A DNA stretch of 20,523 nucleotides from a virus: IMG/VR virus record IMGVR_UViG_3300044949_001905, positions 1 to 20,523 of that record; one strand, 5' to 3'. Under the pieces are notes generated by a model. It had not been told where the DNA came from. It ran no database searches and saw only the letters and a program-made list of their open reading frames with translations. Of the stretch, positions 4,223-20,324 are shown piece by piece. Position 1 is the stretch's first letter; the number at the start of each line of letters is the position of its first letter. The position numbers were made by a program, and so were the translations under genes.

Positions 4223-5867
4223 CATAACCAGGGCATCATTAGATGCCAATGCACTAACTAACTTCCCGGACAATAACACTAACTTCATCACACCTGCACT
4301 ACTCAGGGCATGGCTTGATGATGCTGTGGATAGCTTTGTCACCCAGAAGGACAAGAGTACTCTGGAGAATGCGATCTATGAGAATGAGGGAAGTGCATTA
4401 ACTGCTGCTGCAACTATTAATCTGGCAAATGCATCGGGCAACTATCTGCACATAACCGGAGCATTCAATGGTGTAAATTCATTTGGCATTTGTCCGGCAG
4501 GGGCAAGGTTTATCCTGGTCTTCGATGGGGTATGTACCTTGACTGACTCAGCAACTCTTGTGTTGCCCGGAGGCTCAGACATCACTACTGCTGCCGGAGA
4601 CTGTGCCATGCTTGTCTCTGAAGGCTCAGGAAGTTGGCGCATGGTTGGCTTTTTCCCAATCTCTGGAGGAGGGGGAGGAGGAGACATTACAGCGGTAACT
4701 GCCGGAACTGGATTAAGTGGAGGAGGCACAAGTGGAGCAGTTACTTTGAACCTGGCTAATACTGCTGTCACTCCTAATAGTTATACCAATGCCAACATAA
4801 CCGTTGATCAACAAGGCAGAATCACAGCAGCCTCAAGTGGTACATCAGGAGGTGTGCCAGGGGGAGCAGACACAGAGGTTCAATACAACAATGCCGGAGC
4901 ATTCGGAGGCATTCCTGAACTCACTTATTCAGGTGGATTTGTGCAGATTGAAACACCTAAGATAGGCACAGGCAATGGCAATGGACATCTTCATATTCAC
5001 TCTGCCAACTCTGCGCCTACTGGGATAACCAACTACCTAACTACATGGTGGGAGAAGGCTACCAGAGTACTTGGATTTAGATCAGAGACTGACACCCATG
5101 AGACCTACATCCAACTAACTGCGCCTACTGCGGATAGAACTATTACTCTTCCTGATGCATCTGGCAATGTGGTTATTGACACTACTGTGCCTTCATTTAG
5201 CAATGGAACAAGTGCCGGAGAAATTAGACTTCTTGAACCTTCAGGAAGTGGAACTCAATCGGTAGGAATCAAGGCTCAGGCAATGGGTTCTAATTATGAT
5301 CTAACATTGCCAGTTAATGCAGGTACAAGTGGTCAGGTTTTGCAGACTAATGGTTCGGGATTATTAAGTTGGACAAGAAATGGTGGCACTATTAATGCAT
5401 CATATCTATTAGACACCACAGAAACTCAGGCAACCGGAACTGCTGAAACAATTAATAAGACTCTCTTAATTCCTGCGAATACATTTTCTGCACAAACTTC
5501 TTTTAAAATTATTGTAAGAATTAGAAAAGACAATCCTGGATTTAATGTAGTAGCTACCAGAATTTACATTGGAACAAACCCGGCAAGCATTGTGGGGGCA
5601 TTTAACTTAGGATTGTGGAATTTTGTAGCAGCATTAGCTTATAATGCTACAATAATGGAAAGAAGTGTTTTAATTATTAACCCAACAACACAAACCCAAT
5701 ATAATTTACCACAAAATGGCACAACAGCAATTACCGATGTAATTAATGGAACGAATACTATCTCTGCCATAGATTGGACAGTCAGTCAATATATAATTGT
5801 AACAACTGCATCAAGTGCAGCAACATACTCAGCATTTATTAGGTCAATTCAAATAATCCCACAATAA
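4215..5867 (+). CDS. Tail fibre / receptor-binding protein (550 aa)
   Basis: The sequence has tail fibre style. An N-terminal attachment-like part (about 1-150) is followed by a run of six glycines near residue 152. Low-complexity Gly/Thr/Ser repeats come next (ITAVTAGTGLSGGGTSG, VTPNSYTNANITVDQQGRI), and then segments common in phage fibre shafts (LPDASGNVVID, LPVNAGTSGQVLQTNGSGLLSW). From about residue 390 the C-terminal 160 residues change character: Ile/Asn-rich, beta-like, and encoded by much more AT-rich DNA. This is the usual place for a receptor-binding tip. The start overlaps the previous stop by 8 nt, and the next gene begins 1 nt after the stop. The role in host recognition is inferred from type and position. 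Confidence 0.75.
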   Translation: MANITRASLDANALTNFPDNNTNFITPALLRAWLDDAVDSFVTQKDKSTLENAIYENEGSALTAAATINLANASGNYLHITGAFNGVNSFGICPAGARFILVFDGVCTLTDSATLVLPGGSDITTAAGDCAMLVSEGSGSWRMVGFFPISGGGGGGDITAVTAGTGLSGGGTSGAVTLNLANTAVTPNSYTNANITVDQQGRITAASSGTSGGVPGGADTEVQYNNAGAFGGIPELTYSGGFVQIETPKIGTGNGNGHLHIHSANSAPTGITNYLTTWWEKATRVLGFRSETDTHETYIQLTAPTADRTITLPDASGNVVIDTTVPSFSNGTSAGEIRLLEPSGSGTQSVGIKAQAMGSNYDLTLPVNAGTSGQVLQTNGSGLLSWTRNGGTINASYLLDTTETQATGTAETINKTLLIPANTFSAQTSFKIIVRIRKDNPGFNVVATRIYIGTNPASIVGAFNLGLWNFVAALAYNATIMERSVLIINPTTQTQYNLPQNGTTAITDVINGTNTISAIDWTVSQYIIVTTASSAATYSAFIRSIQIIPQ

Positions 5868-11349: not shown

Positions 11350-12216
11350 ATGGCAAAGACTCCTGAGCAGTTAATCAAGCAAATTCAGGAACTTCAGCTG
11401 GCAATTGAAAGCCGGATGGATGATGCTCTGCCCAGGGTATTCAGCAAGTTATCCGATCAGGTAATTGACCTTGCCTCTAATCTGTCACTTGATCCCAAGG
11501 ACAGAGCCAAGTCATTGAAGGAGCTGATAAAACTCAAGAAAGAAATTGCTGACACTATTGTTACTAATGCTCCTTACCAGGCACAAGTGTCTGAGGTCAT
11601 CAAGGGCTTTGAAATGCTTTCGGAGCTAAGCAATGAATACATCACTGTGGCATTAGGTGACTTCAGTGAAAAGAAGGCTCTCTATAAGGCTATCCTTGAG
11701 ACTAACATAGCCACAACCAAGGATGCTCTGCTTGGTGCTGGCATCAGGGAAAACTTTGGCACAGCCATTCAAGAGGTACTGAAGGACAACATTGCTGGCA
11801 TAGGCACAAGGTCTGAACTTAATAAGACACTCAGAAAGTTTATTGAAGGCACTCCAGAGGAATCAGCATTTCTGAATAGGTATATTAAGCAGACAACTAA
11901 TGATGCTGTGATGACCTTTAACAGTGAGTATATCCAGACTATTGCGGAGGATTTGGATGTAGAGTATTATCTCTATGCTGGCACTGTCATAAATGACTCC
12001 AGAGCCTTCTGCGTTTCAAGGTCAGGCAGATACTTTACCACTGACCAGGTCAAAGCCTGGGCCAATCTAAAAGGCTGGGATGGCAGAATGAAAGGCACTA
12101 ACAGCAGCACCATCTTTATTTACCGAGGAGGCTATAATTGCAGGCATCAGCTTTGGCCTGTGAGTCAGGAGCAGTATGAGGCTGCAAAGGAGAAGGGCAG
12201 AGCAGGTCTAAGATGA
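11350..12216 (+). CDS. Head morphogenesis protein, SPP1 gp7-like (288 aa)
   Basis: The N-terminal 190 residues are helical and charged. The C-terminal domain carries the signature of the phage head morphogenesis (SPP1 gp7 / Mu F-like) family: N215-D-S-R-A-F-C221, then SGRYFTTDQVKAW, then GRMKGT, and the closing GGYNCRHQ (Y262-H266). The conserved Cys and His residues are all present. In model phages this minor head protein is carried in the procapsid with the portal, and here it follows the portal gene by 1 nt as expected. Full length appears intact. It is the last plus-strand gene before a minus-strand gene, and a hairpin follows its stop. Confidence 0.9.
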   Translation: MAKTPEQLIKQIQELQLAIESRMDDALPRVFSKLSDQVIDLASNLSLDPKDRAKSLKELIKLKKEIADTIVTNAPYQAQVSEVIKGFEMLSELSNEYITVALGDFSEKKALYKAILETNIATTKDALLGAGIRENFGTAIQEVLKDNIAGIGTRSELNKTLRKFIEGTPEESAFLNRYIKQTTNDAVMTFNSEYIQTIAEDLDVEYYLYAGTVINDSRAFCVSRSGRYFTTDQVKAWANLKGWDGRMKGTNSSTIFIYRGGYNCRHQLWPVSQEQYEAAKEKGRAGLR

Positions 12217-12217
12217 T

Positions 12218-12234
12218 GGGGACACATTGTCCCC
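12218..12234. terminator. Hairpin between convergent genes
   Basis: GGGGACA (12218-12224) and TGTCCCC (12228-12234) form a perfect 7-bp GC-rich stem with a CAT loop, right after the head morphogenesis stop and facing the 3' end of the minus-strand nuclease gene. There is no T-tract on either side, so it may be a weak, Rho-assisted or bidirectional terminator or simply an mRNA-protecting hairpin. A second small stem, CTACAA/TTGTAG, follows at 12241-12253. Confidence 0.5.
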
Positions 12235-12277
12235 AGGTGACTACAACTTGTAGGCAACCTGTTCCAATTTGTCACAA

Positions 12278-12301
12278 TTTCACCCTACCTTTTCACCCTA
12301 C
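12278..12301. repeat. Two 11-bp direct repeats (TTTCACCCTAC)
   Basis: TTTCACCCTAC occurs at 12278-12288 and again at 12291-12301, a 13-bp period. The second copy covers the stop codon of the minus-strand nuclease gene. A role is not known; it could be a slipped duplication at the end of an inserted gene or a protein-binding pair. Confidence 0.6.
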
Positions 12302-12798
12302 TTTCCTTCCCTATAAGCTAAAAGTAGGGAGATAGGCTTTAAATGTCTCTGCTCGATTACATTTCGGAGGCCATAGCCTAAGTTTTGCTGAACCATGACA
12401 GCAGCCATGCTTTGCTTTCTGATATAGCCTTGTAGAATTACCTCTGCTGCCTGTTCAATTGCCCAGCATAGGATGTAGACATCAGCCTTCAGCTCATCAT
12501 TTAAATTGAAGACTAACTTCCCGGTCTTGTACTTGGTGGTCTTGACATCAATGTTATACTCATCCATCATAAGGTCAGTGCCTCCATCACCTTCCAGACC
12601 GCAAGACATATCCATTGGAATCTTGAGAGCCTTACTGACAGCATACTCACCCATGACACCGAGCATGTCAGCTGTCTGCTGGTCATTGCCCCAGTGCTTC
12701 TTATAGCGGTTAGGGTTGGCCTGATCCTTCAGGAAGTGCCTGCCATTGGCAAGCACCCGGAGCAGCTCCATTTCTCTGGGTGTAAAGGTTATCTTCAA
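12298..12798 (-). CDS. Predicted PD-(D/E)XK nuclease-like protein (166 aa)
   Basis: The sequence shows a PD-(D/E)XK layout: an N-terminal helix with E51 (GVMGEYAVSKAL), then GGTD with D75, then D84-V-K86 (NIDVKTTKY), followed by alternating strand and helix. This fold serves restriction enzymes, Holliday-junction resolvases and other DNases. The role here (recombination, packaging-related cleavage, host DNA attack or exclusion of rival phages) cannot be told. The frame starts with TTG at 12798; the first in-frame ATG, at 12771 (residue 10), would keep all predicted catalytic residues. A TGA lies just upstream in frame, so no longer start exists. The gene is the only minus-strand gene in a plus-strand block, flanked by a hairpin and direct repeats at its 3' end and a candidate promoter at its 5' end, as expected of independently expressed cargo. 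Confidence 0.7.
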   Translation of the reverse strand: MKITFTPREMELLRVLANGRHFLKDQANPNRYKKHWGNDQQTADMLGVMGEYAVSKALKIPMDMSCGLEGDGGTDLMMDEYNIDVKTTKYKTGKLVFNLNDELKADVYILCWAIEQAAEVILQGYIRKQSMAAVMVQQNLGYGLRNVIEQRHLKPISLLLAYREGK

Positions 12799-12814
12799 CG
12801 CTCATAGAGGATTA

Positions 12815-12822
12815 CAAAAGTA
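12815..12822 (-). promoter_or_regulatory. Candidate -7 box for the minus-strand nuclease gene
   Basis: Read on the minus strand, TACTTTTG fits TAnnTTTG exactly and lies 16 nt before the TTG start at 12798. Transcription would begin around 12808-12809, giving a very short leader. No clear -33 TTTG is seen at the usual distance. It is the only promoter-like motif seen in the 48-nt gap between the divergent genes. Confidence 0.4.
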
Positions 12823-12846
12823 AGTGATAATAAACGATATTTGAGC

Positions 12847-12978
12847 ATGAAAAAGGCAAAGACAGGCAGCACTCCGGTAGCTAAAATTAGCTTTGGCAAG
12901 CGCAGAGAGGGCAAGCATAGTAAATCAAGAAAGCCAAAGGCAGCAAGACAGAAGGCATATAAAGGACAAGGCAGATAA
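12847..12978 (+). CDS. Very basic 43-aa protein, probable DNA-binding
   Basis: This short gene encodes 43 residues packed with Lys, Arg and Gly and ending in KAYKGQGR. It is highly positively charged with almost no acidic residues. Small basic proteins ending in a similar Y-x-G-Q-G-R motif recur in Bacteroidota phages, where binding of packaged DNA is a reasonable guess. The ATG at 12847 is the only good start, and the TAA shares one base with the next ATG (TAATG at 12976-12980), which supports a real, translationally coupled pair. The function is inferred from charge. Confidence 0.65.
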   Translation: MKKAKTGSTPVAKISFGKRREGKHSKSRKPKAARQKAYKGQGR

Positions 12979-13214
12979 TGGCTGAGAAGAAGTTTCAAAA
13001 GAAGGTCAATGGCAGGACTGTTAAGTTTGGTGCAAAGGGCTATTCCATTGCACCTGGCACAGCCAAGGGCGATGCCTACTGTGCGAGGTCTTCTGGGATA
13101 CCCAAATGCAAGGGGAAGAAACATTGCCCTAATGACTTAAGCAGACAAGCCTGGGGCTGTGTTGGTAAAAAGTCAGTAAAAAGTGCTGCTAAAAAATTTA
13201 CCAGAACTAAGTAA
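12978..13214 (+). CDS. Small basic phage protein with four cysteines (78 aa)
   Basis: The protein is basic and contains FGAKGYSIAPGTAKGDAYCA, followed by further cysteines. C35, C44, C50 and C61 (YCARS ... KCKGKKHC ... WGC) could bind one zinc ion. The pattern G-T-x-K-G-x-x-Y-C-A-R-S ... LSRxAWGC is one I associate with small conserved phage proteins of unknown role, often near structural or packaging genes. It overlaps the preceding 43-aa gene by one base and precedes the endolysin gene. A nucleic acid-binding role is likely from charge and cysteines, but not shown. Confidence 0.75.
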   Translation: MAEKKFQKKVNGRTVKFGAKGYSIAPGTAKGDAYCARSSGIPKCKGKKHCPNDLSRQAWGCVGKKSVKSAAKKFTRTK

Positions 13215-13223
13215 CTTTACAAC

Positions 13224-13598
13224 ATGCAACTGAAGTATTTTAAGCTTTCTGAATTTGACTCCCCCGATGCTCCTGGTTCAGGAAGCAACATGAAGGAGGA
13301 GTTCTTGGTTAAGCTGGACAAGGCCAGAGAAATTGCTGGTGTTGCCTTCCGGATTAACTCAGGGTTCAGAACTCAGGCTCATAATATTTCTTTGAAAAAA
13401 AAGGGATATAAAGCAGTAAGTAACTCTCCACATCTGGGAGGCTGGGCTGCCGACATCCATTGCAATGATTCGGTCAATAGGCTTAAGATTGTTCAGGCAT
13501 TGCTTGAGGTTGGCTTTGTGCGAATCGGAATTGCAGGTACATTTATCCATGTTGATTGTGATCCAACGAAGCCACAGTCACTCATCTGGACATACTAA
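13224..13598 (+). CDS. Endolysin, M15 family peptidase (124 aa)
   Basis: This is a compact M15 (VanY / D-Ala-D-Ala carboxypeptidase-like) zinc peptidase domain: GFRTQAHN (residues 47-54), the signature S68-P-H70-L-G-G-W-A-A-D77, and the closing F-I-H109-V-D111. H70, D77 and H109 are the expected zinc ligands. At 124 residues it covers the domain alone, as in single-domain phage endolysins that cut the peptide part of peptidoglycan. No signal peptide is seen, so a holin would be needed; candidates follow directly. The stop shares one base with the next ATG (TAATG). The sequence TAACTTTA lies 4 nt before the ATG and resembles the -7 motif with one mismatch. Confidence 0.92.
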   Translation: MQLKYFKLSEFDSPDAPGSGSNMKEEFLVKLDKAREIAGVAFRINSGFRTQAHNISLKKKGYKAVSNSPHLGGWAADIHCNDSVNRLKIVQALLEVGFVRIGIAGTFIHVDCDPTKPQSLIWTY

Positions 13599-13894
13599 TG
13601 ACAACAGAAATCAAATCTGAGCTGGTCAAATTCATGGGTGATTTGCCTGCCTACGGAGCAATCTTAATTACGAATTTGACTAACCCTGATATTCAATTTT
13701 ACAACGAGCTGGAAGCCTGGGCATACTCACATGGCTGGGCAGTAATTTTACTCTACCGTTTGGGAGTAATTATCCATGACATCCACAAGCGCATGATGCA
13801 AAAAGACCTGTGGGAGGATGAGAAAGGAGAAGTCAGGATGATGACTGGCTATGAAAAAATTTGGGTTGAAATCAAAAAGTTAAGAAAAAAATGA
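13598..13894 (+). CDS. Lysis-cluster protein of unknown function (98 aa)
   Basis: I do not recognise a family. The N-terminal half has a hydrophobic patch (WAVILLYRLGVIIHDI, about residues 47-62) that could be amphipathic or a weak membrane segment; the C-terminal third is charged and Lys-rich. It overlaps the endolysin stop by one base and the next gene by four (ATGA), so the cluster from 13224 to 14441 is translationally coupled. An accessory lysis or virion role is plausible from position only. Confidence 0.7.
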   Translation: MTTEIKSELVKFMGDLPAYGAILITNLTNPDIQFYNELEAWAYSHGWAVILLYRLGVIIHDIHKRMMQKDLWEDEKGEVRMMTGYEKIWVEIKKLRKK

Positions 13895-14211
13895 CCGTAT
13901 CAAGAGAAATAATTTTTGTCCTTCTGCTCATGGTTGGCTATGTTGCAGGTGATGTGTATTTCGCAAAGCAAGCACACCAGAAGCTGGATAAACTTGTCCA
14001 GGACAACGAGAATTTTACCACAGCAGCATTGTTCAGAGTTGCTCGGTGCGAGACAAGAATTGATAGCATTAAAGCTCAGACAAAGGCAGTGGCAGAATCA
14101 GTTATCTATGTTGACTCAGTTGCCACCACTAAGACAGGCAAATCGGAGAGAGCAGAGAGGAGGGGCAGATTTGTAGGTGGATTGCTGAAGGGATTAATTC
14201 CCGGACTATGA
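13891..14211 (+). CDS. Single-pass membrane protein, spanin-like candidate (106 aa)
   Basis: Residues 6-24 (EIIFVLLLMVGYVAGDVYF) form an N-terminal membrane anchor. A polar, helix-forming region (about 27-75) follows, then a basic tail and a short hydrophobic end (GGLLKGLIPGL). An N-terminal anchor plus helical periplasmic region, directly after an endolysin, is the plan of an inner-membrane spanin (Rz-like), which disrupts the outer membrane at lysis. No companion lipoprotein was seen inside or after the gene. It could also be a holin-associated or unrelated membrane protein. Both ends overlap neighbours by ATGA. Confidence 0.65.
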   Translation: MTVSREIIFVLLLMVGYVAGDVYFAKQAHQKLDKLVQDNENFTTAALFRVARCETRIDSIKAQTKAVAESVIYVDSVATTKTGKSERAERRGRFVGGLLKGLIPGL

Positions 14212-14441
14212 TTCGCAATACCTTCGCCAAGCGGATGCAAGTGTATGCCTACACCTGCACTACTGCTGTGCTGATTGGATTGCTTTTGGGAGTGGGTTAC
14301 CTCTATAAGATTAACCAGGTACAAGCATCTGATTCGGTGCTGATGTTTATTTTGGCTCAGGTGCTTGGCTCATGGGCAGCACTTACAAGCAAGATTTTCC
14401 GCATTACCTCAGCAGGCTCAGACAAAGCTGAGAATAATTAA
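14208..14441 (+). CDS. Two-pass membrane protein, holin candidate (77 aa)
   Basis: The protein has a short basic N-terminus (MIRNTFAKRM), then two membrane segments (about residues 12-31 and 43-60) with a short loop between them, and a charged C-terminal tail. Size, topology and position two genes after the endolysin fit a class II holin, which would form the pores that release the M15 endolysin. It overlaps the upstream gene by ATGA. No holin family signature is recognised, so the call rests on topology and context. Confidence 0.65.
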   Translation: MIRNTFAKRMQVYAYTCTTAVLIGLLLGVGYLYKINQVQASDSVLMFILAQVLGSWAALTSKIFRITSAGSDKAENN

Positions 14442-14446
14442 CTTTG
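14439..14446 (+). promoter_or_regulatory. Possible -7 box (TAACTTTG) before the 344-aa gene
   Basis: TAACTTTG matches TAnnTTTG exactly, overlaps the stop codon of the holin candidate and lies 5 nt before the ATG at 14452. No -33 TTTG is evident. As at 1934, use of this box would give a nearly leaderless mRNA. Confidence 0.25.
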
Positions 14447-14451
14447 TGCTT

Positions 14452-15486
14452 ATGAATTGTCTTCAGAACTACATCGGACTGAAAGGCTGCACCACAGGTG
14501 AGCCATTGTCTGGCCTATACATTAATGACTATCCCGGCATGAGTTCGGAGCTGCTTGATAAGATAGCCACACCGGAGCAGGTAAGCTATGTGGGCATGTG
14601 GAACTCAGCGCAGAATGTTAGCTATGTTAAGATTAAGAGAGACATTCAGGCTGCCCTATACAGCGCAGCAGAGGCTCAGTTAGATCAGGTGCTATTCCAG
14701 ACCAGAAAGGAGTTTGTGCAGCAATGGCAGCAGGTGCAAGTAGTTCCGGCAGAGGCTATCCTGAAAGGCACATTCGTAAGCATTCAGGGCAGCAAGTATT
14801 TGTCCTTAAGGGTTAAGCAGATATATATCTACAATGCCGGGCCAGCGGTCAATGGCATTGACTGGTTTATATTCCAGACTCAGGATGGCAAGCTGCTGGA
14901 TAGTGGCACTGTTAATCTTGGTCCAGGAATGAATTATGTGCCGGTCAATAATGAGTTCTACTCAGACTTTGACAAGCTGAACATTATGGTGGCGGTTGAC
15001 TGCACCAATCTACCTACCAGCACAGGCATGTTCAGTGATTATGGATGGCAGCAAATGGACTTGGAATGTGCCTCTCGTTTCAGCTACCTGTGGCGCAATG
15101 GGTGGAGCATCTTCCCGGTAACTGCTCCGCTTGGCTATGGCTTTGGTGATTCATGGAGTCAGGACAATAGCCAGTCTGGAGTGTACATAGATGCTCAGCT
15201 GCTATGCTCACTTGATAGCTTCATTTGCCAGCAAAAGGAGTTTCTTCTTGATGCCTGGGCAAATCTGCTCTGCTATCAGATACTCTGGCAGAAGGTAGCC
15301 TCACCGAGAGCCAACTACTTTGCTCAGGGCAACCGGGAATTTACCGAGAGGGCAATGGCAACTTTCCTTGATGGCTATCAGCAAAGTCTGGCTATCTGGG
15401 CAAGGCAGCTGAACCTAAGAGGTGAAGGTCTGTGCTTTAACTGCGATAATGCTGGCCTGATTCAGCAAGGATTTGTAAGGCCATAA
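14452..15486 (+). CDS. Conserved phage-associated protein of unknown function (344 aa)
   Basis: The start is placed at the ATG at 14452 (MNCLQNYIGLKGC). A longer frame from 14365 would bury 26 codons inside the holin candidate and give an unlikely N-terminus. The opening, C-L-x-x-Y-I-G-x-x-G-C followed by SGLYINDYPGMS and VSYVGMWNSAQ, is a pattern I associate with uncharacterised proteins of Bacteroidota phages and prophages. Residues 135-200 look strand-rich (IYIYNAGPAVNGIDWFIFQT), and the C-terminal half has several cysteines, ending with CFNCDNAG. There is no membrane segment. It is the last gene of the plus-strand lysis block and may be a virion protein. No function is known to me. Confidence 0.75.
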   Translation: MNCLQNYIGLKGCTTGEPLSGLYINDYPGMSSELLDKIATPEQVSYVGMWNSAQNVSYVKIKRDIQAALYSAAEAQLDQVLFQTRKEFVQQWQQVQVVPAEAILKGTFVSIQGSKYLSLRVKQIYIYNAGPAVNGIDWFIFQTQDGKLLDSGTVNLGPGMNYVPVNNEFYSDFDKLNIMVAVDCTNLPTSTGMFSDYGWQQMDLECASRFSYLWRNGWSIFPVTAPLGYGFGDSWSQDNSQSGVYIDAQLLCSLDSFICQQKEFLLDAWANLLCYQILWQKVASPRANYFAQGNREFTERAMATFLDGYQQSLAIWARQLNLRGEGLCFNCDNAGLIQQGFVRP

Positions 15487-15493
15487 GGCATAA

Positions 15494-15594
15494 GCTTACG
15501 GCAAGTACGGACAATTGCCGTACAATTCTGTCGCAAAAGTTGCCGATATTTGCGACAATATATCACGCAATATTGCGGCAATAGGATAGTTAGC
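15494..15594. repeat. Dense inverted-repeat cluster (possible third attC-like site)
   Basis: Within 100 bp there are several overlapping palindromes. TACGGCAA (15497-15504) pairs with TTGCCGTA (15515-15522), and alternatively GTACGG (15505-15510) with CCGTAC (15518-15523). TGTCGCAAA (15529-15537) pairs perfectly with TTTGCGACA (15549-15557), and CGCAATATTGCG (15566-15577) is self-complementary. ATTGCCG (15514-15520) also pairs with CGGCAAT (15576-15582), enclosing the inner hairpin. The core hexamer TTGCCG/CGGCAA occurs four times. A GTTAGC (15589-15594) closes the region next to the stop of the 63-aa gene, as at the other two hairpin sites. It sits between convergent genes and could be a recombination site, regulator-binding array or termination zone. 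Confidence 0.6.
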
Positions 15595-15601
15595 GGTAAT
15601 G

Positions 15602-15793
15602 CTATATATCCTCCAAAGGGACAGGGTGATAAGAAATGACATACTTATGACAGCTTTGAGCCATGTGTCCGTGATGCCATTCTCCATCAATCCATTGAGC
15701 AATTTCCCATCCGCTTTCAGAATAATGCGGACATCTAACTAAATACCAAGTTTCTTCTTTTGGTTCTTTTTCTGTTGTTTTTACAAGTTTCAT
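15602..15793 (-). CDS. Small Trp/His-rich protein, cassette gene (63 aa)
   Basis: The 63-residue protein starts at ATG 15793 with an AT-rich leader and ends next to the GTTAGC at 15589. The sequence is rich in Trp, His and Tyr (ETWYLVRCPH, GWEIAQWIDGEWHHGH), with a basic N-terminus. The W-x-x-x-x-W-I-D-G-x-W spacing recalls small DUF551-like phage and plasmid proteins, but I would not assign it. It does not overlap neighbouring genes, unlike the tightly packed operon to its right, and it lies between two inverted-repeat regions. Its function is unknown. Confidence 0.65.
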   Translation of the reverse strand: MKLVKTTEKEPKEETWYLVRCPHYSESGWEIAQWIDGEWHHGHMAQSCHKYVISYHPVPLEDI

Positions 15794-15823
15794 TTTTATT
15801 TCAATTTGTGAAGAAGGGCAGCC

Positions 15824-15953
15824 GCTAACAAGGTATTAGCTATATGGCGGCTGACTTGCTTCGGTTAAACATTTATTTTAAATTCAACTGTGGTTCTTCG
15901 TATCGGCTGTGGTGCTGAAAATCCGGCACATCGCTAATACCCGAACCGTTAGC
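15824..15953 (-). repeat. attC-like imperfect hairpin A (130 nt)
   Basis: The outer arms are GCTAAC (15824-15829) and GTTAGC (15948-15953). Inside them, after spacers of 2 and 6 nt, GGTATTAGC (15832-15840) pairs perfectly with GCTAATACC (15933-15941). Weaker complementarity continues inward (TATATGGCGG against CCGGCACATC), and the centre is a long unpaired region. Nested outer and inner arms separated by unequal spacers, about 130 nt in total, resemble integron attC sites. It lies just past the stop of the 83-aa gene on the minus strand and before the 63-aa gene. Confidence 0.5.
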
Positions 15954-15977
15954 ACACATTAAAATTTTAGTGTGTGC
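15952..15977. repeat. 26-bp near-perfect palindrome at the end of the 83-aa gene
   Basis: Arms GCACACA (15952-15958) and TGTGTGC (15971-15977) flank a TAAAATTTTA core (15960-15969), with one mismatch pair (59/70). It covers the last codons and stop of the 83-aa gene. The same TAAAATTTTA decamer is present just before that gene's start (16210-16219), so the gene is bracketed by matching sequence. It may serve as a terminator hairpin on the minus strand, though there is no T-tract. Confidence 0.7.
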
Positions 15978-16210
15978 ATCTTATCAAGATACTCGTTGAA
16001 AATTCGCCTTATGAAAGGTTCAAAAGGTTCGTAATCATTTTTATCTTCAATCCATTCTCTTACTTCCATTTCAGAGTTCCAAAGTAATACTCCATCAAAA
16101 CTGATTGCATCTACAAATCCAGTAGTTGAGTATTCAAATCCTTTTTCAACTTCCCCAAACCTTTCATAAAGCTCGGTATTCAATTCTCTAACAAGTTCTG
16201 TGTAATCCAT
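15959..16210 (-). CDS. Acidic 83-aa protein, cassette gene
   Basis: I do not recognise this protein. It is acidic and rich in Glu, Phe and Tyr (ELNTELYERFGEVEKGFEYS, then EVREWIEDKNDYEPFEPF), probably a small alpha/beta or helical protein, with no Cys and no membrane segment. The ATG at 16210 follows an A/T-rich leader, and the stop lies in a palindrome. It is the only gene between attC-like hairpins A and B, with no overlap to any neighbour, and the gene-plus-site unit measures 366 bp. The surrounding DNA looks more AT-rich than the phage genes on either side. Integron cassette genes are often small orphans of this type. Confidence 0.65.
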   Translation of the reverse strand: MDYTELVRELNTELYERFGEVEKGFEYSTTGFVDAISFDGVLLWNSEMEVREWIEDKNDYEPFEPFIRRIFNEYLDKMHTLKF

Positions 16211-16226
16211 AAAATTTTAACGATGT

Positions 16227-16319
16227 GCTAACAGCGTATATGCAAGATACGCCATGAAGCGGTTTACAATTATTTAAGTTCATGGTTTGGCGTACCTCGC
16301 ATATACGCAAAACGTTATC
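16227..16319 (-). repeat. attC-like imperfect hairpin B (93 nt)
   Basis: The outer boxes are GCTAAC (16227-16232) and GTTATC (16314-16319). Inside, GCGTATATGC (16234-16243) pairs perfectly with GCATATACGC (16299-16308). After a 4-nt internal loop, TACGCC (16248-16253) pairs with GGCGTA (16289-16294), and ATGAA (16254-16258) pairs with TTCAT (16279-16283), with a 5-nt bulge GGTTT on one side only. Two paired blocks, an asymmetric bulge and a variable terminal loop are the hallmarks of folded attC sites. Its sequence differs from hairpin A while the plan is the same. Confidence 0.55.
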
Positions 16320-16362
16320 AGCAATTACTACATTCATTGTATCTTTGTCCTAATAAGACCCC

Positions 16363-16599
16363 TCACGCCTCTTCACAATGCTCACCCGGAGGGGTTTTCG
16401 ATTTTTCTGCCCAGTACTCATCAAAGTCAATTAAGGCACGGAGGAACACCTTGCCTCTGGCATCAAACCTTATTAGGGCAGCATCCCAGGTTTCACCATG
16501 TTGCTGCCTTTCCATTTCAAGAGCCTGCTCAACAATGTCAGGCCACTTTGTAGAGCCTTTTAAAAAATCATGCTCCAAGAGCCATTCTACTGCTGTCAT
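16363..16599 (-). CDS. Small conserved phage protein (78 aa)
   Basis: The protein begins MTAVEWLLEHDFL and contains VEQALEMERQQHGETWDAAL, then FDARGKVFLRALIDFDEYW. This combination (TAVEWL at the start, ALEMEKQQHGETWDAA, a Phe-Asp-Glu-Tyr end) is one I associate with a widespread small protein in Bacteroidota phages and prophages, of unknown function. It is the last gene of the minus-strand operon and overlaps the DUF3310 gene by ATGA. Its 3' end lies about 40 bp from attC-like hairpin B, so the phage operon ends where the cassette-like region begins. Confidence 0.8.
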   Translation of the reverse strand: MTAVEWLLEHDFLKGSTKWPDIVEQALEMERQQHGETWDAALIRFDARGKVFLRALIDFDEYWAEKSKTPPGEHCEEA

Positions 16600-16847
16600 A
16601 GCTTCTCAATCTCCCTATTCAAATACCACTGCGCCTTCTTCAAGTCCTCCAGCTTGCTGCCCTTCTTGCCTGCCCTACTGATGTACTTTATGACATTGCC
16701 CAGGTTAAAGCCAAGCTCCCATGCCTCTATGACCTTGATTGCCTCATAGATGTTCTCTGCTCCACCATAGTGAGCAGGATGATCTACTGCCTGCAATGGC
16801 TTCTCCTCCGGCAGGCTGTTAAGGTAACTACTGATGATGTCTCCCAT
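16596..16847 (-). CDS. DUF3310 protein (83 aa)
   Basis: Residues about 20-80 match the DUF3310 pattern common in phages: VDHPAHYGG, then YEAIKVIEAW, then NLGNVIKYISRAGKK, then LEDLKKAQWYLNREI. The family is a small cytoplasmic phage protein often found among nucleotide-metabolism or early genes; its function is not settled. Length is typical. It overlaps the 78-aa gene by ATGA and begins 2 nt after the preceding stop, so it is part of the minus-strand operon. Confidence 0.92.
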   Translation of the reverse strand: MGDIISSYLNSLPEEKPLQAVDHPAHYGGAENIYEAIKVIEAWELGFNLGNVIKYISRAGKKGSKLEDLKKAQWYLNREIEKL

Positions 16848-16849
16848 AG

Positions 16850-17074
16850 TTAAGGATAATAAAAAACTGGTTTAGGAATATTAAACTCCGACATGGTTCT
16901 GCCTCTAAGCTCTTCCATGTCTTTGTAAAGCTTGCCATTGAAATAATATCCAACATGCCTGGGCTTGCTCCGCATGTTAATAAGTTCAGCCTTAATCAGC
17001 ACATCATTAACATCTACTTCGCCCTCATTGCTGACAATAAAGTCAATCAATTCCTCAATCGGTGTCGGGTTCAT
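16850..17074 (-). CDS. Hypothetical small protein (74 aa)
   Basis: I do not recognise a family. The N-terminal half is acidic and helical (PIEELIDFIVSNEGEVDVND); the C-terminal half has aromatic and Lys/Gly-rich sequence (RHVGYYFNGKLYKDMEELRG) ending PVFYYP. No membrane segment or catalytic motif is seen. It overlaps the upstream 62-aa gene by 20 nt and is separated from DUF3310 by 2 nt, so it is co-transcribed with both. Confidence 0.7.
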   Translation of the reverse strand: MNPTPIEELIDFIVSNEGEVDVNDVLIKAELINMRSKPRHVGYYFNGKLYKDMEELRGRTMSEFNIPKPVFYYP

Positions 17075-17243
17075 TGCTTTCTTTAATTAGTAATTGAATT
17101 ACATGTCTAATATAGATGAGCGCATTCATGCCTCCCTGCCAATAGTTTCTGCTTGTTTTGTCATTGCCATCATGCTCCATCAACATCTTTTTTGATTTGA
17201 TTTCCTTTTCTACAATGATAAGCACTTGCTCAAGATTGGTCAT
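17055..17243 (-). CDS. Hypothetical small protein (62 aa)
   Basis: A small, mostly helical and basic protein (LEQVLIIVEKEIKSKKML, then RNYWQGGMNALIYIRHVIQL) with no recognised domain. A heptad-like pattern of Leu/Ile in both halves could mediate coiled-coil contacts. The start overlaps the previous gene by ATGA and the 3' end overlaps the next gene by 20 nt, which supports expression in the operon. Confidence 0.7.
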   Translation of the reverse strand: MTNLEQVLIIVEKEIKSKKMLMEHDGNDKTSRNYWQGGMNALIYIRHVIQLLIKESNEPDTD

Positions 17244-17470
17244 ATTATTATGCGGTCAATGTTAATATCATGGGCTTCCTTTAGCTCATTCCAAGCCTCC
17301 CAGAGATGAGCCTCATCAATGTGCTTACCATCCTCTGATGTGTCTACCAATTGATTGAGTTTGTTGCGCCAATCCCAGATGAATAAAGCCATATCAAGTG
17401 ACTTAACACAACGATAGTGATTAATTGCATCATCTGCATCATCCATATTAAAGGATAGTACTGCTCTCAT
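17240..17470 (-). CDS. Small conserved phage protein (76 aa)
   Basis: The start (MRAVLSFNMDDADDAINHYR), followed by DMALFIWDWRNKLNQLV, resembles a small acidic protein seen in many tailed phages, in which a short strand beginning M-K-A-x-L-x-F-x-L is followed by a W-D motif and a helix. The function is unknown. It overlaps both neighbours by 4 nt (ATGA), directly downstream of the GT2 gene. Confidence 0.75.
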   Translation of the reverse strand: MRAVLSFNMDDADDAINHYRCVKSLDMALFIWDWRNKLNQLVDTSEDGKHIDEAHLWEAWNELKEAHDINIDRIII

Positions 17471-18168
17471 ATCTTTCTTTTTTTAAGGCTGTCCAGATGC
17501 CCGATGTGCTTGACAAAACCCCTGCACAAGGTCAGGCCAATGTAGCCGGCTTCGTAATACTTCTTGTTATACTGAATCTCAGCAATTGCATGATCATTGC
17601 TTCTCCACTCGCAGAAGTTGCTGAACTTGCCCATTGCTTTGTAATCGGATAGCCTTCGCAATCCGGGATTCCAGGTAAAGCCATGCCAATGACCCTTATA
17701 CCGATGGGCAAGCTGCTGATATCTGACATGTTGTTTTGTTATCTTCATGCCCGGCAGAACGGTATGCCCATTGCGGTCAGAGGGATGTCTCATCCAGACA
17801 CATGCACACTTAGGCTCAGCCTCCAGCACCGAGCGAGAATCATGGATAAAGCCTTCAGCATAAAACTCCCAGTCATCTTCGCAGTGAAAAATGTAAGGAG
17901 TAGTAACCTGAGAGTAGAGTGTATCAATTGCATGCACCTGACCTCGCCTGTTGCTGCTTGACCACTCAGCCATAATCTGCCAATGCCTCATCAGGAATCG
18001 GTCTAATTCCTTAACCAGGACAGCATCAATTGCACCGGAGTCATCGTGTATTAAGAAAGCTGCCGGAGGTAGTCCATCCCAATAGCTGACCAGACTGCTG
18101 ATGGTTTTCTCAAGTAAATCCCATCTTCCGCAGCTGGTCAGGCAGACAGTTATATCTCTCTTATCCAT
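17467..18168 (-). CDS. Family 2-like glycosyltransferase (233 aa)
   Basis: The N-terminus (ITVCLTSCGRWDLLEKTISS, from residue 6) is the first strand and helix of a GT-A fold. H41-D42-D43 in FLIHDDSG and N73-RRG fit GT2 sugar-nucleotide-binding positions, and E97-D98-D99 in HCEDDWEF is the metal-binding DxD-like motif. A C-terminal region with W and H residues (GHWHGFTWNPG) probably shapes the acceptor site. The ATG at 18168 is preferred over the TTG at 18180 because it overlaps the stop of the 35-aa gene in the string ATGGATAA, the same type of junction seen in the tail genes. Possible acceptors are phage virion proteins, modified DNA bases or host surface glycans. Confidence 0.85.
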   Translation of the reverse strand: MDKRDITVCLTSCGRWDLLEKTISSLVSYWDGLPPAAFLIHDDSGAIDAVLVKELDRFLMRHWQIMAEWSSSNRRGQVHAIDTLYSQVTTPYIFHCEDDWEFYAEGFIHDSRSVLEAEPKCACVWMRHPSDRNGHTVLPGMKITKQHVRYQQLAHRYKGHWHGFTWNPGLRRLSDYKAMGKFSNFCEWRSNDHAIAEIQYNKKYYEAGYIGLTLCRGFVKHIGHLDSLKKRKI

Positions 18169-18268
18169 TAATGTAGGCAATGAATTTTACAATTAATAAG
18201 CCAAATAGCAGAGTGTACACCATCCAGAACACTGACTGAATGCATGCTTCTTTGATGTTTACTTTCAT
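18161..18268 (-). CDS. Single-pass membrane microprotein (35 aa)
   Basis: This short frame is well supported by its junctions. The ATG at 18268 is 2 nt after the stop of the 102-aa gene, and its TAA overlaps the glycosyltransferase ATG by 8 nt. The peptide starts MKVNIKEACIQ, continues with a membrane segment (VFWMVYTLLFGLLIVKFIAY) and ends ING. It may anchor the neighbouring glycosyltransferase or act on the membrane by itself. No family is recognised. Confidence 0.65.
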   Translation of the reverse strand: MKVNIKEACIQSVFWMVYTLLFGLLIVKFIAYING

Positions 18269-18270
18269 AA

Positions 18271-18579
18271 TTAAATAAAGTAAGAGTTGTCAATTAAAAG
18301 TAACTCAGTTCCTGGACTTGCCAAATAGTAGGTTTTGCCATTCCAAGCCATGATTTGTTGATCATATTGCTCTTTGGTAATTGTCACCCCTACAAATAGC
18401 ACATGAATATTGCCTTGTGTGTGATGATAACTAATGTAATAGATTTCATCAATTTGATAGACCACCAATTGCCCACCCATCAGGCAGGCTCTGTGGATGT
18501 CTTGGATAGTGCCATCATAGATGTCTACCCACATTCGATTTTGTAAGTCAATCCTGACTTTGCTGCGCATGTTATTCAT
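18271..18579 (-). CDS. Hypothetical protein, first gene of minus-strand operon (102 aa)
   Basis: No family is recognised. The sequence reads as mostly beta strand (VRIDLQNRMWVDIYDG, then QLVVYQIDEIYYISYHH, then KTYYLASPGTELLLID), suggesting a small beta-barrel or sheet protein, without membrane segment. It is the first gene after the divergent promoter region, with a leader of about 47 nt if the TATTTTTG box is used. The 35-aa gene follows by 2 nt, so it heads the eight-gene operon. Confidence 0.7.
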   Translation of the reverse strand: MNNMRSKVRIDLQNRMWVDIYDGTIQDIHRACLMGGQLVVYQIDEIYYISYHHTQGNIHVLFVGVTITKEQYDQQIMAWNGKTYYLASPGTELLLIDNSYFI

Positions 18580-18593
18580 AATTAATTATTGGT

Positions 18594-18601
18594 TAGATTT
18601 G
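18594..18601 (+). promoter_or_regulatory. Candidate promoter -7 box for the plus-strand neck operon
   Basis: TAGATTTG matches TAnnTTTG exactly in the 77-nt divergent gap. The implied start near 18608 leaves an A-rich leader of about 50 nt before the ATG at 18657, typical for Bacteroidota. A -33 element is not clear. Confidence 0.5.
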
Positions 18602-18632
18602 TGATGCAATAAAGGCAAAGGAAAAATAACTG

Positions 18633-18640
18633 CAAAAATA
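18633..18640 (-). promoter_or_regulatory. Candidate promoter -7 box for the minus-strand operon
   Basis: On the minus strand TATTTTTG fits TAnnTTTG, with an implied start near 18626 and a leader of about 47 nt before the ATG at 18579. It faces the plus-strand box at 18594, so the two transcripts would overlap at their 5' ends. The region is very AT-rich, so a chance match is possible. Confidence 0.4.
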
Positions 18641-18656
18641 TTTTTAAAAATAATTT

Positions 18657-19196
18657 ATGCCAGTCTATGACAGCACCTCTGCCTTCCTCCGGCAGCAATT
18701 CAGAAACTTTAAGGAGGCATCCAAAGCCGACAAGGTACTGAGGGCTGCTGCCCTTTATGCTGCTCCTGCTGTTCAGGATAGAGTTCAAAGTAGTGGCAGA
18801 AAGTCTGATGGTACTCAATTACCTCCCTATGATTCTGGGCGCACAGTAAGCACTGCCAGCCCAATAGGTAAGAAATTCGGAGACATTGCAACTAAAAAGC
18901 AAGCCAAATCCTTTGGAGATCGGGCATCGTTTAGCAGCTATAAAGAGTTCAGGCAAAGACTTGGCAGGCAGGTTGCCTACATGGACTTGACATTAACCGG
19001 AGACATGTGGGCAAGCTGGAAGCCAGTGCCAATAAGCAACACTGCCTATGGTGTTACCTTCACTTCAATTGAGCAGGCTAAGGTTGCCGGATATTTGGAG
19101 GAGAGATTCGGTGCTATTTTTGAACTTTCTGACCAGGAGCTTGACCAATCGCTTCAGATCATCAATCGACTGGCAACTCAAATCCTTGCTAAATGA
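18657..19196 (+). CDS. Head-tail completion protein, Mu gpG / HK97 gp10-like (179 aa)
   Basis: An N-terminal helical region with basic residues is followed by LTGDMWASWKPVPIS, then GVTFTSIEQAKVAGYLEERFG and IFELSDQE near residues 110-160. This order (L-T-G-x-M-x-x-S-W, V-x-F, A-x-Y, R-F, F-x-L-S) is that of phage virion morphogenesis / neck proteins, which join head and tail. It starts a plus-strand operon after the divergent promoter region and overlaps the next gene by ATGA. The exact family name (Mu gpG or HK97 gp10) cannot be decided by eye. Confidence 0.7.
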   Translation: MPVYDSTSAFLRQQFRNFKEASKADKVLRAAALYAAPAVQDRVQSSGRKSDGTQLPPYDSGRTVSTASPIGKKFGDIATKKQAKSFGDRASFSSYKEFRQRLGRQVAYMDLTLTGDMWASWKPVPISNTAYGVTFTSIEQAKVAGYLEERFGAIFELSDQELDQSLQIINRLATQILAK

Positions 19197-19678
19197 TAGT
19201 CACCAAGGTAACCGTTGAATCTGCGCTCAAGAATCTCTGCGATAATCTGGCAGGTACATTTGTCAACAACATGCTCAACTATGGGGAGGCTGTTGAGAGC
19301 ATTGTAGAAGGCAGTGCTGGCAACTATGTAACCAAGGATGGACATACTTATTGCGCTGTCAATGACACCTATCCTCTGGTAGTGTTTCTGGTTCGGGAAT
19401 CAGCCAGCCTTGAAGCAACTCCAGCCGGAGGCAGAGCCAACAGCCTGCTCAGGACAGTCAACTTTAAATTAGTAGCTAATTCAACTTTTGAGAATGCCGA
19501 GTTCGGCATTACTTCCATCATCAACAGAACTAAAGGTATAACTTATGCCGGTACGGATTTCAATTCCAAAGCAATCGCCAACCAATACTTCGGGCTACCA
19601 GAGCGAAACTTTGAGACCTACTTCTTCACAATTGACTTCGCTGTCACGGAGCGCATCAGTTGTGCAGTTGCCTGTTGA
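19193..19678 (+). CDS. Probable tail terminator / head-tail joining protein (161 aa)
   Basis: An alpha/beta protein of about the length of tail terminators. It has an N-terminal helix (VTVESALKNLCDNLAG), a long strand region with TYPLVVFLVRESASLEATPA and LLRTVNFKLVANSTF, and a C-terminal strand pair (ETYFFTIDFAVTERISC). It follows a completion protein and precedes further late genes, which is where tail terminator genes usually sit. The stop overlaps the start of the GT25 gene by 11 nt. The function is inferred from position and fold impression. Confidence 0.55.
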   Translation: MIVTKVTVESALKNLCDNLAGTFVNNMLNYGEAVESIVEGSAGNYVTKDGHTYCAVNDTYPLVVFLVRESASLEATPAGGRANSLLRTVNFKLVANSTFENAEFGITSIINRTKGITYAGTDFNSKAIANQYFGLPERNFETYFFTIDFAVTERISCAVAC

Positions 19679-20324
19679 TGCTATTTACTTTATCAGTTTA
19701 AAAAAGGCCAGTCAGCGAAGGAACAGACTTCTCCAGCACCTAAAAGGTCTGAAAGATGCACATGGCAGACCTCCGCAATGGCATGAGGCCAATGATGGCA
19801 ATAAGCCTGGTCATGTGGTTGACAATAGCCTGAAGCGGTCAAGAAAGCGACCTAATATGTCCATTGGAGAGATAGGCTGCTGTGCTTCTCACCGGGAAGT
19901 TTGGACATCTATTGTCCAAAATGGTCATCAAACTGCATTGGTTCTGGAAGATGATGCCAGGTTTGAGATTAACAAATTGCAAAACCTGATTAAGCATTGG
20001 GATAAGCTGCCAGACTTTGACTTCCTGCATTTAGGATGGGAATATTATGCTGGCTACAAGGAGCAGACAATTGAGAAGGTGAGCATTCCAGAACTGCCTG
20101 ATCTCTGGAAAGGCGATGGAATGTGGCTAACACATGCCTACATCATTACTAATCATTGCGCCTTGGATTGGCTTCAGCAAACTATTGTGCAAATCAATGG
20201 TCTGGATGCCCTGACAGCAGACATGCAGAGTGGTTGTCTGGCCTATGGCTTTAAGCCAGCCATTGCCTACCAGGAGCGAGGCACTTCAGGAATGCTCCGC
20301 AGTTCAATACATCACACAGGGTAA
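19668..20324 (+). CDS. GT25-family glycosyltransferase (218 aa)
   Basis: The protein matches the GT25 (LPS glycosyltransferase) pattern: an N-terminal AIYFISLKKASQRRNRL, then GEIGCCASHREVW (67-79), then ALVLEDDARF with the metal-binding E94-D95-D96, and DFLHLGW. A further segment (GDGMWLTHAYIITN) matches the usual G-x-x-x-Y-x-I-S block. A longer open frame from 19545 would overlap the upstream gene by 130 nt. The TTG at 19668 (LPVDAIYF) or the GTG at 19662 gives the expected N-terminus; no ATG is suitably placed. Lying within the neck/tail operon, it is likely expressed late and may glycosylate a virion protein, though host LPS is an alternative acceptor. Confidence 0.88.
   Translation: MPVDAIYFISLKKASQRRNRLLQHLKGLKDAHGRPPQWHEANDGNKPGHVVDNSLKRSRKRPNMSIGEIGCCASHREVWTSIVQNGHQTALVLEDDARFEINKLQNLIKHWDKLPDFDFLHLGWEYYAGYKEQTIEKVSIPELPDLWKGDGMWLTHAYIITNHCALDWLQQTIVQINGLDALTADMQSGCLAYGFKPAIAYQERGTSGMLRSSIHHTG

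Follow-up and report, generated by a model that had tools for sequence, protein, structure and literature searches.

We describe here an array of two gene cassettes of the integron type, which the nucleotide sequence supports at positions 15590-16314 of a phage genome fragment, the IMG/VR record IMGVR_UViG_3300044949_001905 (20,523 bp; this whole stretch is called the window below). In our favored reading, to which we give a probability of about 0.8, this is an integron-type array located at an attI-like site of the phage, served in trans by an integrase of the host, and used as an exchangeable cargo bay. The architecture of the array, the attC identity of its hairpins, its exact boundaries, the empty, filled and replaced states of the site, the orientation of the cassette genes and their co-direction with the flanking genes can all be read from the sequences compared.

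The phage nature of the window is indicated by profile searches, which gave matches to tape-measure, virion structural protein, portal and endolysin families. The structural genes occupy the + strand up to position 15486, most genes from 16363 to about 18580 lie on the minus strand, and + strand genes resume after that, so that the two cassettes sit between the + strand structural block and the minus-strand block, the latter probably consisting of early genes. Among annotated phage genomes, a distant blastn search with 15400-16600 returned just a 33-bp match (E 4), and a tblastn search with three window proteins returned no match; the phage is therefore distant from the isolated phages of that annotated collection. 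A G+C-rich inverted repeat (CCCCTC..GAGGGG) is found at about 16352-16404, where two transcription units meet. It was judged to be a terminator by eye and not by computation; its position, after the last minus-strand gene and ahead of the array, means that it could cut read-through.

The first cassette extends from 15590 to 15948 (359 bp) and the second from 15949 to 16314 (366 bp), both with their attC polarity on the + strand. The boundaries of the first were derived from the complementarity of its own ends; relatives of the second (L163-L165) align with the window from 15943/15947 to 16218/16220. The junction hexamers of the array are GTTAGC, GTTAGC and GTTATC, and the right junction, G|TTATCAGCAATTA (16314-16327, + strand), is made of the phage sequence that directly follows the box described below in empty relatives. 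A first-pass annotation, made from the letters alone, had proposed two units of these very lengths delimited by GTTAGC or GTTATC, each with one hairpin and one small gene on the same strand; this description is confirmed, both ORFs being on the minus strand. It had also considered that the consensus boxes fit at the AAC/GTT triplets only, and on this point the fit is better than was thought. Indeed, each cassette begins with bases that pair with its own R'' (GTTAGCGG/CCGCTAAC for the first, GTTAGCACA/TGTGCTAAC for the second), as would be expected of a circular cassette containing an entire attC; many cassettes of the relatives show this too. A relative of the first cassette, starting at the same first base, is found after another attC in L169 and in a different context in L168.

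Both cassette ORFs look like genuine genes, because their relatives differ mainly at silent sites. The gene of the first cassette (15602-15793, minus strand, 63 aa) shows 13 silent and 3 replacement changes in one relative (L168; raw pN/pS 0.019/0.384) and 22 silent and 7 replacement changes in the other (L169; 0.045/0.653). The gene of the second (15959-16210, minus strand, 83 aa) has relatives with 54-55% amino acid identity and raw pN/pS values of 0.24/0.62 (L163) and 0.25/0.58 (L165). Neither of the two proteins has a Pfam or a PHROG match.

The attC identity of the hairpins was examined in two ways. A simple scanner looking for the pattern AAC-short spacer-stem-loop-stem-longer spacer-GTT, applied to both strands of the whole window, returned precisely these two sites, compared with 2 in total in 200 shuffled windows. 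Since the thresholds of this scanner were taken from these phages, an independent covariance model, R1, was built from Bacteroidota genome contigs only, using 36 attC sites located near recombinase genes (those aligned, of 38 in the chosen length range and 48 paired sites). This model was searched without filters; its E-values are to be taken as rough. It matches both sites on the + strand: the attC of the first cassette, from R'' to R', at 15822-15955 (88.8 bits, E 4e-21), and that of the second at 16225-16321 (60.9 bits, E 5e-14). The best other match in the window is the second site itself on the opposite strand, at 11 bits. Among 28 other sequences R1 recovered again the arrays of the ten phage loci, one weak place in the Polaribacter phage P12002L and, in the 17 control stretches, one match of 26.6 bits. 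Both sites have R''/L''/L'/R' arms and unequal spacers, the layout being AAC-2-stem..stem-6-GTT in the first and AAC-1-stem..stem-5-GTT in the second. The proposal that the hairpins are attC-like is thereby strengthened, as is the remark that they share a plan and not a sequence, which counts against copies of one transposable element; no Rfam family matched either of them at the gathering threshold. Folding of both strands, which had been suggested as a check, detected the second site (z -2.9 and -4.1) and missed the first (z -0.24 on the + strand and -0.01 on the minus strand). With two attC 403 bp apart and no integrase in the record, the window meets the criterion for a CALIN.

The array is preceded by a conserved left flank, the box TATATCACGCAATATTGCGGCAATAGGATAG (15559-15589, + strand), whose last base is the G of the G|TTA crossover. 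The same box is found in relatives immediately before different cassettes or before an empty right flank, and by exact pattern it occurs in 32 viral stretches and in none of the bacterial genomes. Relatives were collected through a tail gene, with 133 matched and 80 kept for the box count: the box is present in 21 of these 80 (14 with a cassette and 7 without a called cassette) and absent from the remaining 59. Among the seven, two are empty (L010 and L080), one is empty-like (L031), two have no called attC (L029 and L030), one is cut by the contig end (L034) and one is degenerate (L040). The empty configuration reads box..ATA|GTTATCAGCAATT in L010/L195, L080 and L194, the last part being the sequence that comes after the second cassette of the window. 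In another relative, L004, identity to the window reaches 98.7% over 11369-15593 and 95.5% over 16596-19329, and yet the two cassettes are quite different. The comparison of relatives, which had been put forward as a check on exact GTT breakpoints, thus bears out the presence, absence and replacement of cassettes at exact G|TT breakpoints, and, judging from these alignments, it appears that small cassettes are exchanged at a docking site of the phage. Five box records were found by other means than the tail gene, of which three (67.9, 45.4 and 19.9 kb) lack any match to the window portal protein and two do match it. The box is thus probably not confined to one phage lineage, with the reservation that the records may be incomplete.

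The box itself is not always there. In two relatives (L005 and L072) box and cassettes are both missing and 15560 is joined to 16352, so the box must itself be gained or lost by another route, and the coming and going of the whole box-array segment remains unexplained. In the window, the sequence TTTGCGACAAT stands to the left of the box; in L004 it is found on the right side of the array, and L005 has it a single time, where the two flanks are joined. The places concerned are 15545-15560 and 16340-16352 in the window, and about 4430-4450 and 5300-5315 in L004.

The genes of phage cassettes are mostly reversed. Both window genes are antiparallel to their attC, so that the co-direction of gene and attC used as an integron criterion is not met, and this is the rule in phages, where 206 of the 214 cassettes with an ORF carry it against attC, whereas cassette genes near bacterial recombinases are co-directional with attC in 44 cases out of 46. 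When only ORFs of at least 150 aa are considered, the phage set has 81 reversed and 2 forward, and the bacterial set 41 forward and 2 reversed. Sites lacking an identifiable cassette start (35 of the 264 from phages and 8 of the 56 from bacteria) or an ORF (15 and 2, respectively) had been excluded beforehand. Phage and bacterial arrays were collected by different routes, which is a weakness of this comparison. Three lines of evidence fixed the polarity: the R1 model, the empty sites and the homologous cassettes. There were 49 homologous cassette pairs, 14 of them with a gene at least 80% alike at different loci; in these 14 the right-hand hairpin is conserved with the gene in 8, the left flank in none and neither in 6. 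The right flank of the reversed phage arrays is co-directional with the cassette genes in 51 of the 56 callable cases (2 opposite, 3 unclear), and the left flank is mixed (36 in the same direction, 19 opposite, 5 unclear). It therefore appears that the phage reads the arrays starting at their attC end, expression being here an inference from this co-direction.

Reversed cassettes are nevertheless not confined to phages, as one Pedobacter integron contains them. An exact attC arm is shared by four Bacteroidota genome contigs, of which one (L198) has forward genes and two (L199 and L201, of 3.5 and 32.6 kb) have mostly reversed ones. The fourth (L200, G023:C21:444900-446100) belongs to a 683-kb scaffold of Pedobacter sp. 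BS3, about 13 kb from a recombinase gene at 431997-432815, and lies within a run of R1 matches, nearly all on one strand, that extends from 434.9 to 509 kb. Two reversed cassettes stand there among forward genes, and one of them carries a methyltransferase-like gene. The simplest reading of this sequence would be that phage cassettes entered a bacterial integron. The idea of a strictly phage-only cassette pool was dropped on account of the reversed cassettes placed inside this Pedobacter integron.

As to the cargo, 140 phage cassette proteins, drawn at random from 173 distinct ones of at least 70 aa, were scanned against known families, one protein being allowed to match several of them. The families found include N6_N4_Mtase (30), C5 DNA methylases (6), MethyltransfD12 (5) and Mom (2). 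This methyltransferase cargo is probably anti-restriction and would protect the phage DNA, although the benefit is inferred. The same interpretation of phage cassette methyltransferases is given in the accessible part of PMC9892861. When the 173 phage cassette proteins were compared with 40 bacterial stretches, 7 had a match at E 1e-5.

If the phage carries the site and the cassettes, the enzyme has to be looked for, and candidates were found in the Bacteroidota. In Amniculibacterium aquaticum, reached from one of the four contigs that share the attC arm, a 362-aa tyrosine recombinase adjoins the site GTTATGTG and a stretch that resembles a cassette and has an attC. Relatives of the recombinase are present in 194 of the 395 genomes of the class (E 1e-45 or better), many of them being probably general tyrosine recombinases. 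The 587 kb surrounding 40 of them contain 57 attC-like sites, at 24 of the 40 loci. Control stretches taken from these genomes gave 5 sites in 323 kb, at 4 of 17 loci, and each of ten shuffles of the 587 kb gave 0-6. The other 16 loci have no called attC within the stretch examined. In the closer group of recombinases the array usually begins upstream of the gene and on the opposite strand, with L335 as an exception, and in the more distant group it usually begins downstream, on the same strand. An XerA-like recombinase family near attC arrays, without the additional domain of IntI and with these two layouts, is thus seen in the Bacteroidota contigs L333-L370. That the arrays are served by the neighboring recombinase is an association and not a proof.

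These bacterial arrays also provide a comparison for the phage box. The motif TTGCG-N11-GTT precedes the first cassette in 7 of 18 bacterial sites, others having a variant of it, and the window box has it exactly. Scored against a matrix of the 18 bacterial sites, the window box reaches 4.5, a value equalled by 8 of 6813 background GTTA sites. The best box variant, TATTGCGTATATAGGATA, outscores all 6813, and the poorer of the 15 variants are equalled by up to 91 of them, several standing at about 1%. By its sequence, its spacing and its behavior the box may thus be called attI-like, its function being inferred.

The bacterial enzyme is not a canonical integron integrase. The best match of one recombinase, P0001, is the XerA-like NCBIfam family NF040815, below its cut-off (216.8 vs. 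220 bits), and it differs from that family in adjoining an attC and an attI-like site and in having an N-terminal extension of about 90 aa; it has no IntI additional domain. The alignment of the Bacteroidota recombinase with IntI4 (2a3v) pairs residues 98-266 with 13-181 and 292-361 with 250-319, and the gap between the two indicates that about 43 residues of IntI are missing from the recombinase. A canonical IntI (TIGR02249 over the cut-off) was found in 1 of the 395 genomes, and three segments of it, the longest of 24 residues, are absent from more than 90% of the 40 candidate recombinases aligned. Software that relies on IntI to recognize a complete integron would probably class these arrays as CALIN. 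The additional domain is called necessary for an integron integrase in the portion of PMC9668308 that was available, and a recombinase standing beside Bacteroidota arrays without the domain held to define these enzymes therefore puts the definition of the integron in question. From the accessible parts of the sources, IntegronFinder 2 reported a complete integron in Bacteroidetes proper, in Salinibacter ruber, earlier complete ones being those of Chlorobi and Ignavibacteriae (PMC9024848), and a review counts the Bacteroidota among the phyla having integrons (PMC8618304). As far as these go, integrons in the phylum are therefore not new, and this enzyme may be.

The functioning that we propose is the following. 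The phage would maintain, past the end of its minus-strand gene block, a small docking site resembling attI (15559-15589), and the infected Bacteroidota cell would supply the integron integrase, probably of the XerA-like type found beside the attC arrays of that phylum. Acting in trans, this host enzyme would join a folded single-stranded attC to the box at G|TTA. Each new cassette would enter adjacent to the box, progressively building the array, and excision would be possible as well. The reversed genes are mostly oriented like the flanking phage genes on the attC side and would not be read from attI. The arrays would thus constitute an exchangeable cargo bay, filled mostly with small genes of unknown function and DNA methyltransferases. 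The enzyme, the single-strand step, the recombination itself, the expression of the genes and their benefit are all inferred. The action of a host enzyme in trans is supported by the lack of any tyrosine recombinase (PF00589) or resolvase in 21 of 21 phage records (the window and 20 others), none of which meets the integron criterion of an integrase in cis; how complete these assembled records are is not known, and the window is a fragment. Against this reading, no recombination has been observed, the host is unknown, and the box was found by exact pattern in no bacterial genome.

The integrase could also be encoded by the phage, having built the array and then been lost from the lineage of the window, or lying on its unsequenced part. 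This is unlikely in our view, but it has some substance, as tyrosine recombinases are present in 9 of 50 attC-bearing viral records (75 had been sought and 50 were covered; one of the 50, G018, also belongs to the 21 recombinase-free records). The five phage recombinase ORFs that were extracted, the only ones of 11 loci, have 35-42% identity to the Bacteroidota enzyme, and in three records (G424, G426 and G454) the integrase adjoins attC with reversed genes. In G426 (L413 12445-16658; record of 35.8 kb, having tail fibre and tape-measure matches) it stands beside attC with reversed genes, as it does in G454 (L415 12675-14439; record having head protease and tail fibre matches), and it is 276-277 aa long in both. 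The largest case, G424 (L232/L395/L396; IMGVR_UViG_3300043411_001575; 169.7 kb), has 39 R1 matches at 38 distinct places over about 38 kb, a 298-aa XerA-like integrase at the array edge (L396:2177-3070) and reversed genes in the parts examined; we are less certain that it is viral, because a tail fibre is all that the tested proteins gave by way of structural matches. What counts against a phage enzyme for the window is that none of the nine tail-gene relatives of 32-36 kb has a tyrosine recombinase, the completeness of these records being, however, not known.

Two other explanations do without any integrase acting at the phage site. In one of them, the array was acquired from a host integron or from another phage by homologous or illegitimate recombination, its sites are passive relics, and relatives differ through recombination in the flanks. 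The available part of PMC9892861 explains phage CALINs by off-target recombination, homologous or illegitimate, two relatives (L003 and L004) have both flanks in common with the window, and the joint absence of box and array in some relatives goes in the same direction. Such a process does not account well for breakpoints falling on G|TT at both ends and between the cassettes, for relatives of one cassette that start at the same first base in different contexts, or for a box conserved at empty sites; moreover, phage genes being mostly reversed and bacterial ones mostly forward, the cassettes are not simple host copies. We therefore hold it to be quite improbable. The other explanation, two hairpin elements (MITE-like or structured RNA) moved by a transposase with passenger ORFs and without any integron integrase, has for itself only that the inverted GTTAGC/GCTAAC ends around each gene can be read as terminal repeats, and we consider it hardly tenable: the hairpins are alike in plan and not in sequence, they fit a bacterial attC model, and the units stand head to tail at one conserved site. 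The lack of an Rfam match at the gathering threshold and the difference in sequence between the hairpins led us to reject a MITE or a structured RNA.

The integron-type array served in trans thus remains our preferred reading, and it can be placed among known systems. CALINs without integrase have been described in virulent phages (Qi et al. 2023, PMC9892861). According to the accessible parts of that work, 5 of 6 phage attC sites recombined with IntI1 and attI1 in an assay, and typical same-direction arrays were seen in two phages, with divergent attC in the Polaribacter phage P12002L. The window resembles these CALINs, as far as they are documented there, in having attC and small cassettes without integrase, with methyltransferase cargo in other phage arrays, and differs from them in its stand-alone attI-like site, empty or filled, in the consistent reversal across phages and in its Bacteroidota-type attC. 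The first-pass annotation had presented gene cassettes in a phage as a novel way of loading accessory genes: phage attC clusters having been published in 2023, this holds only in part, and the orientation and the attI-like box are what we did not find in print, within the searches made. These two features and the probable host enzyme had escaped that annotation. A search of the literature, preprints not covered, gave no paper on a stand-alone phage attI, on reversed phage cassettes or on such a Bacteroidota integrase. In P12002L itself (KR136259), a methyltransferase gene at 29248-29973 lies against an attC-like hairpin at 30011-30052; R1 finds no clear match there, only a weak one at 39118-39249 (27.7 bits, E 3e-5).

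With the sedentary chromosomal integron the array shares the attC hairpins and the head-to-tail cassettes and, as inferred from sequence, the attI and the G|TT crossover. It differs in that no integrase is present in cis, in that the genes face the attI-like box, and in that the cassettes are aligned with the flanking phage genes and not with an attI promoter. Cassettes can also be inserted outside the classical integron, at the G|TT of attG sites, which are scattered and short targets; the phage box differs from these in being a conserved attI-like sequence of about 30 bp.

Such a site could give integrase-less phages a specific way to acquire and discard accessory genes singly, in a fixed place and with defence-related cargo. 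The reversed orientation is a sharp and testable signature, which separates most phage cassettes from most bacterial ones. A broader proposal is that Bacteroidota phages maintain an integron kind of their own, with a docking site, turned cassettes, an XerA-like integrase of host or phage origin, and reading by the phage and not from a promoter on the attI side; on present evidence we are evenly divided about it. If true, this would mean an attC recombination system working with an enzyme that lacks the IntI domain, and an anti-restriction library common to unrelated phages, the pool of which can leak into bacteria, as in Pedobacter.

Some minor observations can be added. The attC hairpins measure mostly 60-89 and 110-129 nt in phage-dominated sets, and 118 nt is the commonest size in bacterial arrays. 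The motif TAnnTTTG, which we take to be the -7 box of Bacteroidota promoters, is found on the attC strand of attC loops 33 times in phages (shuffle mean 15.2) and 9 times in bacteria (2.1). On the strand that the phage genes would need, it is found once, compared with 7.1 in shuffles; a promoter within attC as the source of phage expression was rejected, the motif not being enriched on the required strand. In bacterial arrays, TAnnTTTG in attC might drive the next forward gene. Finally, the window has two glycosyltransferase-like genes, at 17467-18180, with a weak Glycos_transf_2 match, and at 19545-20324, with matches to phage glucosyltransferase families.
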